Virus record (IMG/VR): IMGVR_UViG_3300003702_000007 | Span: 1 to 38,454 of that record | Origin: a virus | Length of the DNA stretch: 38,454 bases | Direction: 5' to 3' (one strand) | Shown: positions 1 through 15,720 of the stretch, one piece after another | How the letters are laid out: each line of letters opens with the position of its first letter | How positions within the stretch are numbered: position 1 is the stretch's first letter | Made by a program: the position numbers and the translations under genes | The notes under the pieces: generated by a model | Database searches by the model: none | What the model was told of the DNA's origin: nothing | What the model saw: only the letters and a program-made list of their open reading frames with translations

Positions 1-506
1 TTGCACAAATTGATAACTTATTTATTGTTAGTCCACCTGCTGAAGTTCAACAAGTGGTAGAAGAAATAAAAAGTGAGAATAGTAAAGATAATATACTCAG
101 TATAGATTTTCTTGAGTTTAATGATTTAGAGAAAGATTATTTAAAAGATAAAAGAGAACTAGAATACAGAGAATTAGATATGGATCTACTAGATGTAGAT
201 TTTTTACAAGATTTACTAGTAACTATCGAAGAAGGCGATTTACTTGATAGAAAGAAAGGAGGGGAGTTTCCTGGAGGAATAAATATAGCTGGCACATCTC
301 CGGGATTTGATAAAGACAGTCAGTATAATACTATAATAGAGGATTCTGGACAAATTTGGTTTTATAGAGAAGTAACGGGAATTATCAGTATTCGTTTGCC
401 TATTTCAGCAAATGCATCAATAAGCACGATAACTGATGAAAAAGAAAGCTTAATAACCGTAGGTGACGGACAAGCTATAAATATAACAATAACACAAGTA
501 AATTGA
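1..506 (+). CDS. 3' part of an unknown protein (5' end outside window)
   Basis: The reading frame is open to the left edge from base 3, so the GTG at 54 is probably internal. About 168 residues are visible. The first two thirds are charged and probably helical, rich in Asp, Glu, Lys and Leu. The last part becomes beta-rich and ends INITITQVN, very like the end of the next gene product (SITITQD). The stop overlaps the TTG start of the next gene (TTGA), so the two are probably translated together. I do not recognise the family. A link to curli-type secretion or assembly is inferred only from the shared C-terminal motif and the neighbour. Confidence 0.75.
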   Translation, partial: AQIDNLFIVSPPAEVQQVVEEIKSENSKDNILSIDFLEFNDLEKDYLKDKRELEYRELDMDLLDVDFLQDLLVTIEEGDLLDRKKGGEFPGGINIAGTSPGFDKDSQYNTIIEDSGQIWFYREVTGIISIRLPISANASISTITDEKESLITVGDGQAINITITQVN

Positions 507-1312
507 AATATATCATAACATTAATATTATTATGTATGTCGACTCAGGCATTCGGAGATAATGAAATAGATATAGAGCAAGTAGCTCAAGGGGATAGCCT
601 TACTTTAGATCTTACGCAAGAAGGATATAATAATGATATATTTTTCTCAATAGGCGATGGAGATAATATTAGTGTTGAGATTTTTCAGATAGGAAATAAC
701 CAAGAAATTGGTTACGCTAATGATTCTCCTGGTTGGGGGTCTGGAGTTAGTTGGGGTGGAGATATAGACTATGATAATCAAAGTATAAAACTATATCAAA
801 ATTGTACTAAAGGAACGGACTGTAATAAGAACGATATTCAATTCCACATAAGTTATGGTACAAGTAATAAGTTATGGTGGGCGCAAGGATTTGAAATAGA
901 TAGTAGAACAGATACTAATTGGGCTAAAGATGGTACAGAAGGCGGTGGTCATTATGTTACAGTAGATATACATGGAAATAATAACTCAGTAGTAGGTGTA
1001 CAAAGAAATTGTTCAGCAGGTTCATGTGATGGTCACTCTGCAAGAATTTATGTATACGGAGATGATAATGATGTATTTGGTAGACAAAAAGCTGATGATA
1101 GTAAAGAGTTTTATCTAATTATTAATAATGATGATAATACGGTAGACTACTTACAAGATGGAACAGGCGAACACTATGCAAATATTACACTTACTGGAAC
1201 TTACGGAACAGATTTAAATTGGTCGCAACATGCTAATACTAATCTGTCTTATACTTTAACGCAAAACTGTATAACCTCTGGTGGTTGTAGTATTACAATA
1301 ACCCAAGATTAA
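503..1312 (+). CDS. Secreted curlin-like beta-repeat protein
   Basis: This 269-residue product starts at TTG, overlapping the previous stop by four bases. It has a clear Sec signal peptide (Lys-2, hydrophobic stretch to about residue 14, likely cleavage after AFG near residue 18). The mature part is rich in Asn, Gln, Gly, Asp, Thr and Ile. It shows short alternating segments of the type IxIxQ-x-G-x-x-N, for example VEIFQIGNNQ, YTLTQNC and ITITQD, separated by turns containing GDGDN, GNNN or GDDND. This resembles curlin repeats, which stack into beta-solenoid amyloid, but the units are irregular. Several Cys-containing loops (NCTKGTDC, NCSAGSC, NCITSGGC) could form disulphides, as expected for an exported protein. 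It could be an amyloid fibre subunit, an adhesin or a virion decoration. The signal peptide is firm; the curlin-like assignment is moderate. Confidence 0.75.
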   Translation: MKYIITLILLCMSTQAFGDNEIDIEQVAQGDSLTLDLTQEGYNNDIFFSIGDGDNISVEIFQIGNNQEIGYANDSPGWGSGVSWGGDIDYDNQSIKLYQNCTKGTDCNKNDIQFHISYGTSNKLWWAQGFEIDSRTDTNWAKDGTEGGGHYVTVDIHGNNNSVVGVQRNCSAGSCDGHSARIYVYGDDNDVFGRQKADDSKEFYLIINNDDNTVDYLQDGTGEHYANITLTGTYGTDLNWSQHANTNLSYTLTQNCITSGGCSITITQD

Positions 1313-1725
1313 TGAAAACAATACTATTAACATTACTCCTACTTTTCTCAACTACAGCTCAAGCTGGTTTTGAAGACTGGACCAAACAAGAGCAGAGATT
1401 ATATAAATCTTTTATAACTTTTCAGACTATGGACTTAATGCAAGCCTTTAATATGATTGACTGTCAGGAAACAAATCCAAATTGTAGTTTTATAGAAAAG
1501 AATCCCTTAATGGGATCTCACCCAAAAAAGGCAGAAGTGGTTATATTTAAACTGGTTACTAATTTTATGGTATATAATATGTTGGATAAGAGATTAACAA
1601 CGAAAGAAAGACGTAGAACACTTATAGCATTGAATGCCATTTCTATTATTCCAGTTATAAGTAATGAACATGTTGGATTAGGCTTTTACATTCCTATACT
1701 TCCATACAATCAATTTAGACGATGA
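1312..1725 (+). CDS. Small exported/membrane protein of unknown function
   Basis: The 137-residue product starts at ATG overlapping the preceding TAA (TAATG). It begins with a signal peptide (hydrophobic residues 4-14, AQA at the likely cleavage site near residue 19). The mature part contains a helix with QTMDLMQAF, a two-Cys loop (CQETNPNC), the motif EKNPLMGSHP, and two moderately hydrophobic stretches near residues 76-90 and 103-117 that may be membrane helices. The family is not recognised with a function. It is coupled on both sides (ATGA into the next gene), so it belongs to the same operon as the curlin-like protein and the cyclase and probably acts in the envelope. Confidence 0.75.
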   Translation: MKTILLTLLLLFSTTAQAGFEDWTKQEQRLYKSFITFQTMDLMQAFNMIDCQETNPNCSFIEKNPLMGSHPKKAEVVIFKLVTNFMVYNMLDKRLTTKERRRTLIALNAISIIPVISNEHVGLGFYIPILPYNQFRR

Positions 1726-3527
1726 AGATTAATTTACTTATTGGAGCCTTATTGGCTTCTTTATTTATTTGGAATCCATACCCTTTCCAAATATTAGAAT
1801 TAAAAACTCTTGATGCTTTAATTATGTCAAGAGAAGAAGTACAAGACGAGATGATTCTTCTTGTAGATATAGATGAGGAAACAGTAAAGGAATACGGCGG
1901 ATATCCTTTATCTAGAAATGTTTATGCTAATTTAATTACTCGTACAGAAGGAGTACCCGGAATTACAGTAGCCTTTCCAGATAAAGACTTTCATGGGTTT
2001 GATGAAGAATTTCAACTTTCTCTAAACCAAAAGCCAACTGTACTTTCTTTTATAGGTAGTATACAAGCAACTGAAGGAGGACCGCACGTTGGAACCGCCC
2101 AGCTAGGCCAAGGTGTTGCAGCAGAGTGGTTATATCAATATCCGGGAATATTACGAAGTGCTTTAAACTCAGAAGGAGTTGGATTAATTTCAACAATTCC
2201 TGAATTAGACGGGGTAGTAAGAAAACTACCATTAGCAATAAGTGTACAAGGAAATATCTATCCCAGTTTTGCACTAGAGATGTTAAGACTTGCAACAGGA
2301 GACCCAAGTTATCAGATAAAGACTGAAGAGACCGGAGTTGAATGGATAAGGCTTCCACAGTATAATATTATTAATACTAATGAAAATGGTACTGTTTGGG
2401 CAAATTGGAATACAAAGTTTTATAGACAATCAGCACTAGAATATTTAAAAGATCCTATTCCAGCACCTTTTGTTATTTTTGGGGTTACAGCAGAGGGAGT
2501 TGCGCCTTTAGTAGCAACACCTGCAGGAGTAAAGTATCCTCATGATATACAAGCATCCGTTTTAAATACTTTAGTTAATGGAAATGCCCTTTCTCAACCT
2601 TCTTGGAATTTTATAGCAGAGCTTGGAGTATTACTTATCGGAATGCTTATACTATTATTTGCTTCTAGAAGTATTTATTTATCACTACCGTTTCTTGTTT
2701 TAGTAATAGGAGGTCTTATATATAGTTCGTGGAGGCTTATAGAGTTTTCCTACTTGTTTGATGTATCAGCTACTATAATTATACTTTTTATTTTTTGGGC
2801 AATAGTACAATTTCGTAACTTTATTACTCAATACTTGTTAAGACAACTAATTAAGAAGCAATTTGGAACATACTTATCACCAGACATGGTTAATATGCTA
2901 CAAAAGAACCCAGAGTTGCTTAAACTTGGTGGCGAACGTAAAGAGATGACCTTTTTGTTTACTGATATCATGGGCTTTACACCCGTATCAGAAGTATATA
3001 AGAATAAAGACGATCCAGAAGGGTTAGTTGATTTAATTAATACTTATTTAGATAAGATGACTAAAATTATTTTAAATAATGGTGGTACTATAGACAAATA
3101 TATGGGTGATTGTATAATGGCTTTCTGGAATGCACCATTAGATTGTGAAAATCATGCAGATATGGCAGTTAAGTCAGCTATTGAGATAAATAAGAAAACT
3201 AAAGAATTAAATAAACAGTTTAAAGATGAAGATTTAGGACTACCCCCTATTAATGTTGGAACGGGTATTAATACTGGGACCTGCATTGTAGGTAATATGG
3301 GATCTGAAACAAGATTTGACTATTCAGTAATAGGAGATGCAGTTAATTTAGCGGCTAGACTAGAAGCAACGGCAGGGAGAAACGATTATAAAGAATGGAA
3401 GATTATTATATCTGAATCTACTATGAAGAAGTGTAAGAATTTTGATTTCGATAGTATAGGTAGTATAAGGGTAAAAGGAAAGAAGGAACTAGTTGCAATT
3501 TATTCACCTTCAAAAAATACTTCTTGA
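1722..3527 (+). CDS. CHASE2-domain membrane adenylate cyclase (class III)
   Basis: The 601-residue protein has the standard CHASE2 receptor-cyclase order: N-terminal membrane helix (about 4-20), extracytoplasmic CHASE2 sensor (about 25-290), three membrane helices (about 297-314, 319-337, 346-363) and a C-terminal class III cyclase domain (about 405-600). The catalytic set looks complete. Metal-binding Asp415 lies in FTDIMGFT and Asp463 in KYMGDCIMAFWNAP. Lys459 with Ser535 sits where adenine-selecting residues are found. Asn542 and Arg546 of VNLAARLE are the transition-state pair. The expected reaction is ATP to cAMP plus pyrophosphate at the inner membrane, controlled by an unknown periplasmic signal. 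It overlaps the upstream gene by ATGA and is the last gene before a promoter. Such full-length receptor cyclases are common in bacteria and unexpected inside a phage structural region. Confidence 0.92.
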   Translation: MKINLLIGALLASLFIWNPYPFQILELKTLDALIMSREEVQDEMILLVDIDEETVKEYGGYPLSRNVYANLITRTEGVPGITVAFPDKDFHGFDEEFQLSLNQKPTVLSFIGSIQATEGGPHVGTAQLGQGVAAEWLYQYPGILRSALNSEGVGLISTIPELDGVVRKLPLAISVQGNIYPSFALEMLRLATGDPSYQIKTEETGVEWIRLPQYNIINTNENGTVWANWNTKFYRQSALEYLKDPIPAPFVIFGVTAEGVAPLVATPAGVKYPHDIQASVLNTLVNGNALSQPSWNFIAELGVLLIGMLILLFASRSIYLSLPFLVLVIGGLIYSSWRLIEFSYLFDVSATIIILFIFWAIVQFRNFITQYLLRQLIKKQFGTYLSPDMVNMLQKNPELLKLGGERKEMTFLFTDIMGFTPVSEVYKNKDDPEGLVDLINTYLDKMTKIILNNGGTIDKYMGDCIMAFWNAPLDCENHADMAVKSAIEINKKTKELNKQFKDEDLGLPPINVGTGINTGTCIVGNMGSETRFDYSVIGDAVNLAARLEATAGRNDYKEWKIIISESTMKKCKNFDFDSIGSIRVKGKKELVAIYSPSKNTS

Positions 3528-8457: not shown

Positions 8458-10470
8458 ATGAATAAGATTTTTAACTTAACTTCAAATTTTAAAGCAATTG
8501 ATGTAAATGAAGATGGTAGCGTAAATATTAAAGGTTACGCAAGTACTAATGATCAAGACAGAGCTGGTGATATTATAGAACCTAAAGCTTGGTCAAAAGG
8601 TGGAATAGGTAATTATGAAAATAATCCTATCATCCTTTTTAACCATGATTATCATAATCCTATCGGTAAAACAACTGAATTAGGTGTTGATGATATTGGA
8701 TTAAAGATAAAAGGTAGAATATCTAAATCAGCAGGAAAAATTAGAGATTTAGTTAAGGAAGGTGTTCTTGGAGCTTTTAGTGTTGGTTTCCGAGTCAAGG
8801 ATGCTGATTATAATGAGGAAACCGATGGCTATAGAATCAAGGACGCAGAATTGTTTGAAATTAGTGTGGTATCAGTACCCGCTAATCAAGCAGCGACCTT
8901 CTCTGTGGCAAAGTCATTCGATTCTGATAAAGATTATCAGAGTTGGAAGACTAATTATGTCAAAACTGGTCAATCTACTACTGTAGATTCACCAGAAGCA
9001 ACAGTCAATCAGACTGTAATCAAGGAAACAGAAATGTCTGAAAATACAGAAAATTTCGATCTTGACGAATTTGCTAGGCAAGCTGCTGAAAAAGCAGTTG
9101 CAGCTTACGCAATGAAACAAGCTGAACAAAAAGCAAAGACTGAAGCTGAGGCTCAAAAAGCCGCAGATGAAGAAGCTGCTAAAAAAGCTGGAATTCAAGA
9201 AAAGAAAGCAGAAGTTGAAAGTATAGTGAAAGCAGGAACAGAAGGAGCAGAACGACTTGTCTCTGATCTAGAAGCTCGTGTTAATAAAGGTTATACTAAT
9301 TTAGAATCTGTTGTTGATGAACTGAAAGCAGAACTGAAAGAAAAATCAGATGAAATCATGAATATTCGTGAATCTAAAAGAACCTTCTCCGATAGAGGAG
9401 AGAAAAAAGGTTTTTACAATTCTAAAGATATTGATGATGCATGGCTCTTAGGTAAAGCGTTAGGTAGACCTATGGAAGATACCGTTTATGGTAAATCTGT
9501 CATAGAAAAACAGAACGCGCACTCCGGTGTAGCCGTTTCATCTGCTGATTTCGAGCAAGAAGTTTCAACAAATATTTGGAGAGATATTCAGAACAAACTG
9601 ATACTCGCCCCTATGTTTGACGAAATTACAATGAATGCTGCAACAATGTTGATCCCTGTCTTACCAGACGCGGGATACGCAGAATATACTTCTAACCAAG
9701 TCGCAACGGGTTCAAGCCCACACGGTAACTTAGAAGAAAGAGGTGATACTTATGGATCGCCTTTTGCAGGTATTGATTTAACAGAACGCTCACTGACCAC
9801 GAAGAAACTTATTTCTATGAGTTATCTTGGAAATGAAACTGAAGAAGACGCAGTTATGCCTATTCTTCCGTTAATTCGTGAATCAATGGTGCGATCTCAT
9901 GCTCGATCAATCGAATCAGGACTCTTAGTAGGTAATCTTGCAGATGGACCATTCGGAACGAGTGGTGCATGCTTTGATGGTATTGTTACTCTCGCCTCTG
10001 GCGATAGTCACAAAACTCAATCAGGAACAGCATTCGCTAGTGAATCTTTGACAGCAGCTCACCTGTTAGCTGCCCGTAAAAATATGGGTAAATATGGTGT
10101 AAATCCAGCAGACGTAGTTTATATAATTAACCAACAAGAATGGTTTAATTTAATGGACGATGCTGAATTTCAGGACGTCAACCTAGTTGGCGATTCCCTC
10201 GCATCTAAAGTTACAGGGGCTGTAGGAATGGTTTACGGATCACCAGTTGTACTGTGTGACGAGTTCGCTACTCCCGCTGTCGGCAAATACTATGCTGTAG
10301 CAGTTAATGCCTCGATGTTCATAAAAGGACGTCTCAGAGGTATGACCGTAGAAAGCGACTATGAAGTTGCTAACCAACGCAGAGTACTTGTGTCTTCACA
10401 AAGAATTGGCTTCATTGACAAGATCAATGCAGTTACTTCTAAATGGGCACTACAATACAAAGCGTCTTAA
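8458..10470 (+). CDS. Prohead protease-scaffold-major capsid fusion (HK97 fold)
   Basis: The single 670-residue ORF joins three functions usually split over two or three genes. Residues 1-150 are a U35-type prohead protease: catalytic His63 in LFNHDYHNPIG, catalytic Ser108 in GAFSVGF, followed by ELFEISVVSVPAN. Residues 195-300 are an Ala/Glu/Lys coiled coil typical of the scaffolding delta domain. Residues 320-670 are the HK97-fold major capsid protein (FEQEVSTNIWRDIQNKLILAPMFDEITM, ERGDTYGSPF, and the C-terminal RRVLVSSQRIGFIDKI). Self-cleavage near 305-350 would release the mature capsid subunit. I see no stop or slippery site between the parts. The capsid part uses CGT/CGC and C-ending codons more than the neighbours, fitting high expression. 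Confidence 0.93.
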   Translation: MNKIFNLTSNFKAIDVNEDGSVNIKGYASTNDQDRAGDIIEPKAWSKGGIGNYENNPIILFNHDYHNPIGKTTELGVDDIGLKIKGRISKSAGKIRDLVKEGVLGAFSVGFRVKDADYNEETDGYRIKDAELFEISVVSVPANQAATFSVAKSFDSDKDYQSWKTNYVKTGQSTTVDSPEATVNQTVIKETEMSENTENFDLDEFARQAAEKAVAAYAMKQAEQKAKTEAEAQKAADEEAAKKAGIQEKKAEVESIVKAGTEGAERLVSDLEARVNKGYTNLESVVDELKAELKEKSDEIMNIRESKRTFSDRGEKKGFYNSKDIDDAWLLGKALGRPMEDTVYGKSVIEKQNAHSGVAVSSADFEQEVSTNIWRDIQNKLILAPMFDEITMNAATMLIPVLPDAGYAEYTSNQVATGSSPHGNLEERGDTYGSPFAGIDLTERSLTTKKLISMSYLGNETEEDAVMPILPLIRESMVRSHARSIESGLLVGNLADGPFGTSGACFDGIVTLASGDSHKTQSGTAFASESLTAAHLLAARKNMGKYGVNPADVVYIINQQEWFNLMDDAEFQDVNLVGDSLASKVTGAVGMVYGSPVVLCDEFATPAVGKYYAVAVNASMFIKGRLRGMTVESDYEVANQRRVLVSSQRIGFIDKINAVTSKWALQYKAS

Positions 10471-13024: not shown

Positions 13025-13303
13025 ATGAAATTCTTAGGAATATTAATGATAGCTTTATCTCTTGTAACCGTTCAAGGTTGTAGCACAGTTGGTGCAGTCT
13101 GGGATGGTGCAACAACCTTTGTTACTGGCACACTTGATGCCGCAGTAACTGGTACTTCTCAAATAGTTAGTGCTGTTGCTGAAGACGTTGTTGATACTGC
13201 TGCATTTGTCGCTGATACTAGCGCCGGCCTCGTAGAGGACGTTGCAGATAAAATCGATGAATCAACAGATGAACTACAAGATGAAGAAAGCGAGGGAAAG
13301 TAA
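13025..13303 (+). CDS. Small predicted lipoprotein (0-frame product)
   Basis: The 92-residue 0-frame product has a lipoprotein signal (MKFLGILMIALSLVTVQGC) with a lipobox-like VQGC and the lipid-bearing Cys at 19. The mature part alternates Val/Ala/Thr/Asp in helical or beta-breaker repeats (AVTGTSQIVSAVAEDVVDTAAFVADTSAG) and ends strongly acidic (DESTDELQDEESEGK). AGGAG at 13015-13019 gives a good ribosome site. It stands between tail completion and tail tube genes, an odd place for a lipoprotein. The stop TAA directly follows a slippery heptamer. Possible roles are lysis, superinfection exclusion or a membrane-docking factor; none is proven. Confidence 0.78.
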   Translation: MKFLGILMIALSLVTVQGCSTVGAVWDGATTFVTGTLDAAVTGTSQIVSAVAEDVVDTAAFVADTSAGLVEDVADKIDESTDELQDEESEGK

Positions 13304-13500
13304 AACGCTCCTTCCGTAAAAATCCCTCCTCATCTAATCGGAAGGAGACGATAAAAGAAGATGACGAGATCACTAAGGTTACTATTGAAGTAAAACGAGA
13401 AAATATTAAAAGCATAATAAATAGGCTTAGAAAATATTGCTTTAAAAACCGAGATGATTGCGAATTCTTTATATTGTTTACTTCTCCCCAAGAGAAGTAA
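13025..13500 (+). CDS. Extended lipoprotein made by predicted -1 frameshift
   Basis: The -1 frame (13300 to TAA 13498-13500) is open for 66 codons after the slippery heptamer at 13294-13300 and has no ATG, GTG or TTG start until 13474, so it can hardly be made alone. Slipping at GGGAAAG just before the 0-frame stop would give a 158-residue protein: the lipoprotein plus a basic segment (VKRSFRKNPSSSNRKETIK) and a folded-looking tail (ITKVTIEVKRENIKSIINRLRKYCFKNRDDCEFF). The tail has two Cys and alternating strand/helix patterns. The extended form would change the acidic C-terminus to a basic extension. It is a prediction from sequence; ratio and function are not visible. Confidence 0.7.
13294..13350 (+). 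promoter_or_regulatory. -1 ribosomal frameshift signal (GGGAAAG plus stem)
   Basis: In frame 0 the codons read GAG GGA AAG TAA, so the heptamer G-GGA-AAG (13294-13300) matches X-XXY-YYZ. It is the same heptamer used by the lambda G/GT genes. Seven bases further, CTCCTTCCG (13308-13316) pairs perfectly with CGGAAGGAG (13339-13347), with CG/CG pairs extending it to 13306-13350 around one bulged A. Spacer length suits a frameshift stimulator. The 22-base loop could add a pseudoknot. Confidence 0.8.
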
Positions 13501-13514
13501 ACAAGCCTTCGGGC
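13474..13514 (+). other. Tandem hairpins before the tail tube gene
   Basis: TTGTTTACTTCTC (13474-13486) and GAGAAGTAAACAA (13492-13504) form a perfect 13-bp stem with loop CCCAA. It is followed at once by GCC-TTCG-GGC (13505-13514), a very stable C(UUCG)G tetraloop, then six A. There is no T-tract on this strand, so a plain intrinsic terminator is unlikely. The first stem includes the end of the -1 frame. It may be an RNA processing or stabilising site ahead of the highly expressed tail tube gene. Confidence 0.6.
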
Positions 13515-14857: not shown

Positions 14858-14869
14858 AAGGATAAAAAA

Positions 14870-15325
14870 ATGGCAGAACAAACCACAACCACAACCACAA
14901 CTAATCCAAACCCAGTTTCTTTGGCAACACTTATGACGCCAAGTAAAACTGTTACTATGGACTATCCTGGTATAGACGGATTTAAAGTAGATATAACTTA
15001 TCTCGCAAGAGAAGAACTACTAAAACTTCGTAATAGGTGTTTAAAACAGAAATTTAATAAAAAAACAAGACAATTTGAAGAAGAACTAAACGATGATACA
15101 TTTTTAACTGAATATGTTAAAGGAGTTATCCAAAATTGGTCAGGGCTGAAATATCGCAGGCTAGAAGAGCTTCTATTAGTTGACGTTTCACATTTAGACC
15201 CTGAAGACGAACTTCCTTTTAGTCAAGATAATGCAGAATTACTTATGAAAAATGCTGCAGATTTCGATACTTGGGTTACAGAAACAGTTGGAAATCTCGA
15301 AAATTTTACCGACAGCAAGTCGTAG
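14870..15325 (+). CDS. Tail assembly chaperone G-type (0-frame)
   Basis: The 151-residue product is the short member of the tail assembly chaperone pair that coats the tape measure during tail assembly. It starts at ATG 14870 behind AAAGGA; the upstream in-frame TTG at 14813 is inside the terminator stem and is rejected. A Thr run (TTTTTTT, encoded by ACAACC-type repeats) is followed by a compact fold: ATLMTPSKTVTMDYPGIDGFKVDITYLAREELLKLRNRCLKQKF and a helical acidic end. The stop is 15 bases after a slippery heptamer. Position just ahead of the tape measure is the main evidence. Confidence 0.85.
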   Translation: MAEQTTTTTTTNPNPVSLATLMTPSKTVTMDYPGIDGFKVDITYLAREELLKLRNRCLKQKFNKKTRQFEEELNDDTFLTEYVKGVIQNWSGLKYRRLEELLLVDVSHLDPEDELPFSQDNAELLMKNAADFDTWVTETVGNLENFTDSKS

Positions 15326-15720
15326 AAATACTAGATTTGCTTGAAAAACATTATGAATCTTCGGACAAAAAGTTCCGAGAATACTTACTAGTATGTGAGA
15401 GATTAGGTAAAGATCCTGATCCCAACAAAGTGCCAATGGACATGGGGAATTTCCCCTATGAAGTTCAGTTGGCTTTTTTAATACATGACTTACTTCCAGA
15501 TAGATGGGAAGGGATGAGTGGATCATATTTAGGAAAAGAATGGTCAGCTACAGGCGTTTTATTAGACGTTTATGATGTAGAAGATAAAAAAACAGTTATA
15601 TTTTTTTTGAAAGCTATAGATAATATAAATAGCAAACTTATAAATGAAAATATGCAAAAAGAAAGAAAAAAAAGAGAAAAACCTTCTCAAGGGAAAATGA
15701 ACTTTCCAAAAGGTAAATAA
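14870..15720 (+). CDS. Tail assembly chaperone GT-type (-1 frameshift fusion)
   Basis: Slipping at AAATTTT (15301-15307) joins residues 1-146 of the short chaperone to 137 residues of the -1 frame (beginning YRQQVVEILDLLEKHYESS), ending at 15720 for a 283-residue product. The T part contains LLVCERLGKDPDPNKVPMDMGNFPYEVQLAFLIHDLLPDRWEGM and a basic end (KERKKREKPSQGKMNFPKGK). The -1 frame has an internal ATG at 15271, but it lies before the slip site without a clear ribosome site. This is the standard lambda G/GT arrangement, in which the ratio of the two forms sets tail length assembly. Three bases after its stop the tape measure gene begins. Confidence 0.82.
15301..15307 (+). promoter_or_regulatory. 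-1 slippery heptamer AAATTTT
   Basis: In frame 0 the codons read GAA AAT TTT ACC, so A-AAT-TTT fits X-XXY-YYZ and both tRNAs can re-pair on AAA and TTT. It falls within the last codons of the short chaperone. A downstream stem is weak (AGCAA with TTGCT, five pairs), so stimulation is unclear. Confidence 0.78.

Follow-up and report, generated by a model that had tools for sequence, protein, structure and literature searches.

The window, that is, the whole stretch of DNA analysed, comprises 38,454 nucleotides and corresponds to the IMG/VR virus record IMGVR_UViG_3300003702_000007. Between its tail terminator and tail tube genes lies a small lipoprotein gene that ends on an in-phase heptamer, followed by a stem-loop and by an open reading frame in the -1 frame (Table 1). 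The original prediction had described a lambda heptamer with a stem at seven bases, a -1 frame of 66 codons without a usable start, and products of 92 and 158 residues. The heptamer GGGAAAG and the 9-bp stem are both present at this spacing, and the -1 frame runs from the heptamer to a TAA at 13498-13500 without any stop. Its sole ATG, GTG or TTG codon is a TTG located 173 nt beyond the heptamer, 8 codons before the end. Both lengths hold as well, the longer one (92+66=158 residues) being that of a predicted product. The window contains 60 in-frame heptamers across 18 genes, and that of the lipoprotein gene is the only one flush against a stop codon.

Table 1. Features of the lipoprotein locus and of the curlin-repeat and cyclase genes of the window.
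Feature	Position	Strand	Remarks
Lipoprotein gene (92 residues in the 0 frame)	13025..13303	+	Cys19 of the lipobox is followed by Ser (+2)
Slippery heptamer G_GGA_AAG, in phase	13294..13300	+	X_XXY_YYZ phase; gene ends GAG GGA AAG TAA
0-frame stop TAA	13301..13303	+	Abuts the heptamer
Downstream stem-loop	13308..13347	+	9-bp stem, CTCCTTCCG (13308-13316) paired with CGGAAGGAG (13339-13347); 22-nt loop; 7 nt past the heptamer
-1 frame extension, 66 codons and stop	13300..13500	+	Initial part basic; helix predicted at the C-terminal end; carries YC-x(6)-C
Curlin-repeat protein with probable signal peptide	503..1312	+	PF07012, 25.0 bits, above cut-off; not part of the signal
CHASE2 and adenylate/guanylate cyclase	1722..3527	+	Not part of the signal

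The stem of the window scores 15, as compared with a mean of 6.5 (sd 1.2) for shuffled sequences, and a folding energy of -17.4 kcal/mol was obtained for the 75 nt located 3' of it (z of -3.9 against mononucleotide shuffles), counted from the heptamer. When the heptamer and upstream bases are included in the fold, another, weaker pairing is obtained (z of -1.66). Further downstream, the -1 ORF ends within a perfect 13-bp inverted repeat (TTGTTTACTTCTC/GAGAAGTAAACAA, 13474-13514), directly after which comes GCCTTCGGGC. The repeat is not a plain terminator, since no T run follows it.

The N-terminus of the lipoprotein is hydrophobic, and Cys19 is invariant in 18 aligned homologues, where it is preceded by Gly, Ala or Ser. 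On the basis of its signal peptide, lipobox and invariant cysteine, the gene product is predicted to be a bacterial-type lipoprotein. Serine at the +2 position after the lipobox cysteine favours the outer membrane in E. coli. Comparison with Pfam gave a weak, sub-threshold match to DUF3568; family and PDB sequence searches provided no functional lead, and PHROGs no match. AlphaFold2 modelled the lipoprotein as a single helix with low confidence, and the extension with a confident helix only near its C-terminus. The extension ends in YCSENPxEC, for example in L037 (3249-3341) and L079 (1149-1325), which by eye is like the C-terminal end of CP12, YCKDNPxxxEC. A CP12-like C-terminus was rejected, the profile matches, which have in common an end of the C-x-x-NP type, being non-significant (E of 0.36-0.39).

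We performed a profile search of IMG/VR, which returned 142 relatives, 80 of which were retained; clustering at <90% nucleotide identity gave 47 homologue representatives. Of these 47, 39 possess a -1 extension, with [YFH]C-x(5-7)-C at its end. An in-frame X_XXY_YYZ heptamer is found in the last two sense codons of 38 of the 39 extended representatives and in none of the 8 that lack the -1 extension (Fisher p of 3e-8, kinship ignored). As the homologues share kinship, such counts are not independent. The junction heptamers are mostly A_AAA_AAG, the others being G_GGA_AAG, G_GGA_AAC, C_CCA_AAA and C_CCA_AAC. The stop codon is placed directly past the heptamer or one codon later. Random synonymous codons drawn according to family usage produced a mean of 15.8 and a maximum of 24 heptamers in 39 junctions, kinship being again ignored, and heptamers occupy only 5 of 3470 in-frame positions in the rest of the homologue genes. 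Eight more distinct loci from a later batch all harbor both the heptamer and the extension; in that batch, L143, L152, L159 and L226 carry G_GGA_AAG or G_GGA_AAC, the type seen in the window.

A second scan used the DNA of the C-terminal motif alone as query, with the lipoprotein left out. This motif-only scan found the motif in the -1 frame behind the lipoprotein gene, with the exception of a small subclade (+1/-2 frame). It revealed no standalone copy of the extension and no in-frame fusion of the two frames, a single fused gene being a case that the original prediction had named as refuting it. The extension of the window, used alone as query against viral contigs, gave no matches because it is too divergent. 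No relative was found in the isolated-phage collection by tblastn with four family members, and the sole result of a genome contig scan, an Erwinia match of 28 residues, was not accepted as a family member.

Folding in the family is strongest in segments starting 0-5 nt past the heptamer, with a mean z of -2.1 and -2.0; upstream segments give -0.3 to -0.95. Many of the stems begin 5-7 nt past the heptamer, with sequences that are unrelated among groups, for example CCTTCTTA/TAAGAAGG, GCCATTC/GAATGGC, CTTCATC/GATGAAG and GCTCATTCTTT/AGAGGATGAGC. No clear stem was seen 3' of the heptamer in L030 and L037; the folds after the heptamer are weak in L143, L152 and L159, and L152 has no clear stem. 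Divergent homologues conserve the -1 frame, a positioned stem and the heptamer, the last as a class rather than as one sequence, in line with the alignment test put forward with the original prediction.

The expectation that homologues keep the -1 frame open holds for the 39 representatives above, but in three related contigs the extension lies in the +1/-2 frame, and six representatives have none. In the three contigs (L071, L109, L131), the site reads GAA GAA AAG AAG TAR (around 381 in L071), and the GCTCATTC stem is kept, by eye one base nearer to the last sense codon. In L109 and L131, an ATG lies in the variant frame 50 nt upstream of the lipoprotein stop, but no clear Shine-Dalgarno sequence accompanies it. 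The extension could be reached in this subclade either from such an internal ATG or by a -2 slip (AAG to AAA), the latter being a guess. The L002 group retains the extension at a site, GAG_GAA_AAG, that is not a full heptamer. Finally, the six representatives without extension (L015, L016, L017, L019, L023 and L024) display, by eye, a terminator-like hairpin and a T run after the stop.

Beyond the stop codon, pN/pS in the -1 frame is 0.30 (27 disjoint pairs), and changes fall mostly on third codon positions (288, versus 146 and 118 on the other two). The extension is under purifying selection. It might be translated as a separate small gene, by reinitiation past the lipoprotein stop or from a non-standard start codon: little separates the two frames, phages often couple the translation of neighbouring genes, the extension of some homologues contains an ATG, and the variant frame of L109 and L131 has its own upstream ATG. 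We nevertheless hold this to be very unlikely. In the -1 frame, start codons occur at varying places, frequently near the motif, and are missing in 5 of the 39 representatives, while a Shine-Dalgarno-like core is rare upstream of them; moreover, reinitiation leaves unexplained the in-phase heptamer of 38/39 extensions and the stems spaced from it.

The six or seven A's present at the site in many homologues could instead suggest transcriptional slippage, in which RNA polymerase slips on the A run and part of the mRNA is fused. The window has three A's only, however, other homologues have CCCAAAC or GGGAAAC, and slippage of this kind does not need a stem 5-7 nt from an in-phase heptamer. To our knowledge, efficient polymerase slippage is not known on A runs this short, and this explanation appears highly improbable. 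A -1 frame open by chance, or a split due to faulty assembly or to the decay of a once longer gene, can be practically dismissed. A 66-codon open frame is in itself not very rare at the G+C content of the window (chance of about 0.007), but dozens of independent contigs share the split, their motif is conserved and purifying selection acts on the extension; the searches gave no fused copy, and the conservation data already contradict this explanation.

A programmed -1 ribosomal frameshift at the end of the lipoprotein gene is by far the best explanation for these data, and we consider very probable the slip that we infer from the sequences. The locus combines an in-phase heptamer, a stem within the range of about 5-9 nt (some groups excepted) and conserved -1 coding without a start of its own; such a signal is canonical, whereas the gene family is not. 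Both G_GGA_AAG and A_AAA_AAG are reported to be highly shift-prone in E. coli (PMC5009743). Searches of open-licence papers brought up no account of a frameshifted phage lipoprotein.

According to this proposal, one start codon would give rise to two lipoprotein forms. Most ribosomes would end at the TAA and produce the acidic 92-residue form. A presumed minority would slip by -1 on G_GGA_AAG, aided by the stop codon and by the downstream hairpin, and would translate 66 more codons to yield the 158-residue form. Both forms would be exported, lipidated at Cys19 and, if the E. coli +2 rule applies to their serine, sorted to the outer membrane. In the periplasm, the longer form would further carry a basic segment, a helix and a pair of cysteines that may perhaps form a disulfide.

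G_GGA_AAG is the heptamer of phage lambda, and frameshifting in phages is known mostly from the tail-assembly chaperones of tailed phages. The -1 frameshifts of lambda G/GT and related chaperones were reportedly described by Xu, Hendrix and Duda in 2004. As in lambda G/GT, ribosomes would slip by -1 close to where a small ORF ends, the abundant product being short and the rarer one long. The lipoprotein differs in that it is unrelated in sequence, is predicted to be exported, is no tape measure chaperone and occurs outside tail modules too; its stop codon also lies at, or one codon after, the heptamer. Its identity as a G/GT chaperone was rejected, PHROGs giving no match and the real chaperones of the window being encoded elsewhere (14867-15325 and 15271-15720). 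These two chaperone genes overlap, the second being in the -1 frame relative to the first, and an in-phase A_AAT_TTT (15301-15307) lies five codons ahead of the stop; the window therefore probably holds a second, classical frameshift. The -1 frameshifts of E. coli dnaX and of IS elements use A_AAA_AAG and a downstream stem; the same heptamer is the commonest in the lipoprotein family, also with a stem downstream, but the genes are different. The lambda G/GT and related chaperone frameshifts are reviewed in PMC5009743, which also mentions a -2 frameshift in phage Mu. A -2 slip would lead into the frame in which L071, L109 and L131 carry their extension, although it is conjectural there and an internal ATG could serve.

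An exported protein family outside the tail chaperones appears to depend on frameshifting, in several unrelated phage types. The several heptamer types swapped at one junction offer a natural series for the study of slippery-site evolution. Gene callers that are blind to frameshifts would stop the lipoprotein early and miss its conserved tail.

The site between two tail genes, which the original prediction had singled out, was correctly placed but is incidental: in relatives, the surroundings of the gene belong to unrelated kinds of phage and often include a CHASE2-cyclase gene. By its tail tube, the window is nearest to T5-like Demerecviridae among isolates (about 30% identical), in which the tail terminator and tail tube genes are adjacent. 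In some relatives, the neighbours of the lipoprotein are T4-like DNA polymerase, SNase and UvsX genes; in others, the neighbour is a gp32-type protein; in others again, the neighbours are an Rz-like spanin and a primase, or there is a CHASE2-adenylate cyclase beside the gene. The lipoprotein gene is not a tail gene and occurs in many uncultured phages, of several types. Its role is most likely that of an accessory envelope protein made during infection.

The curlin-repeat protein and the CHASE2 cyclase are possible functional partners. In the window, their genes are located about 10 kb upstream of the lipoprotein gene. At 503-3527, the gene of a small protein, probably with a signal peptide, stands between those of the curlin-repeat protein and the CHASE2 cyclase, as in pelagiphage curli cassettes. 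Pelagiphage curli (type VIII secretion) cassettes with adenylate cyclase have been reported (PMC9599517; PMC9004378), and a term search of these two papers found no mention of frameshifting. Many relatives have curlin-repeat and cyclase genes close to that of the lipoprotein; in the window, they are located elsewhere. Many loci of the lipoprotein family harbor curlin-repeat homologues, and a cyclase homologue lies within about 3 kb in 16 of the 80 lipoprotein-fetched loci. One is also present in 8 of 30 longer records and in 0 of 9 records without extension, these records being fragments. The cyclase of L143 is closest to that of the window (75%), and the L143 lipoprotein gene lies about 250 bp after it. 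The linkage is suggestive only, because the lipoprotein was found in 3 of 80 cyclase-fetched loci; HTVC008M and Melnitz showed no sign of it around the cyclase. A scan of the cyclase loci for other frameshifted lipoproteins returned the lipoprotein family itself and one CsgG-like gene overlapping the next gene, an overlap that was judged accidental.

Tentatively, the lipoprotein might act together with these phage-encoded curlin-repeat and CHASE2-cyclase genes, a hypothesis that we regard as rather doubtful; if it did belong to the cassette, it would be an extra component of that phage system. Less likely still is the complete scenario in which the frameshift fixes the ratio of two outer-membrane lipoprotein forms as part of a phage curli-like/CHASE2-cyclase envelope system, and in which the subclade switched from -1 to -2 slippage. 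Elsewhere in the window, one ORF (8458-10470) encodes a fusion of prohead protease and major capsid domains.
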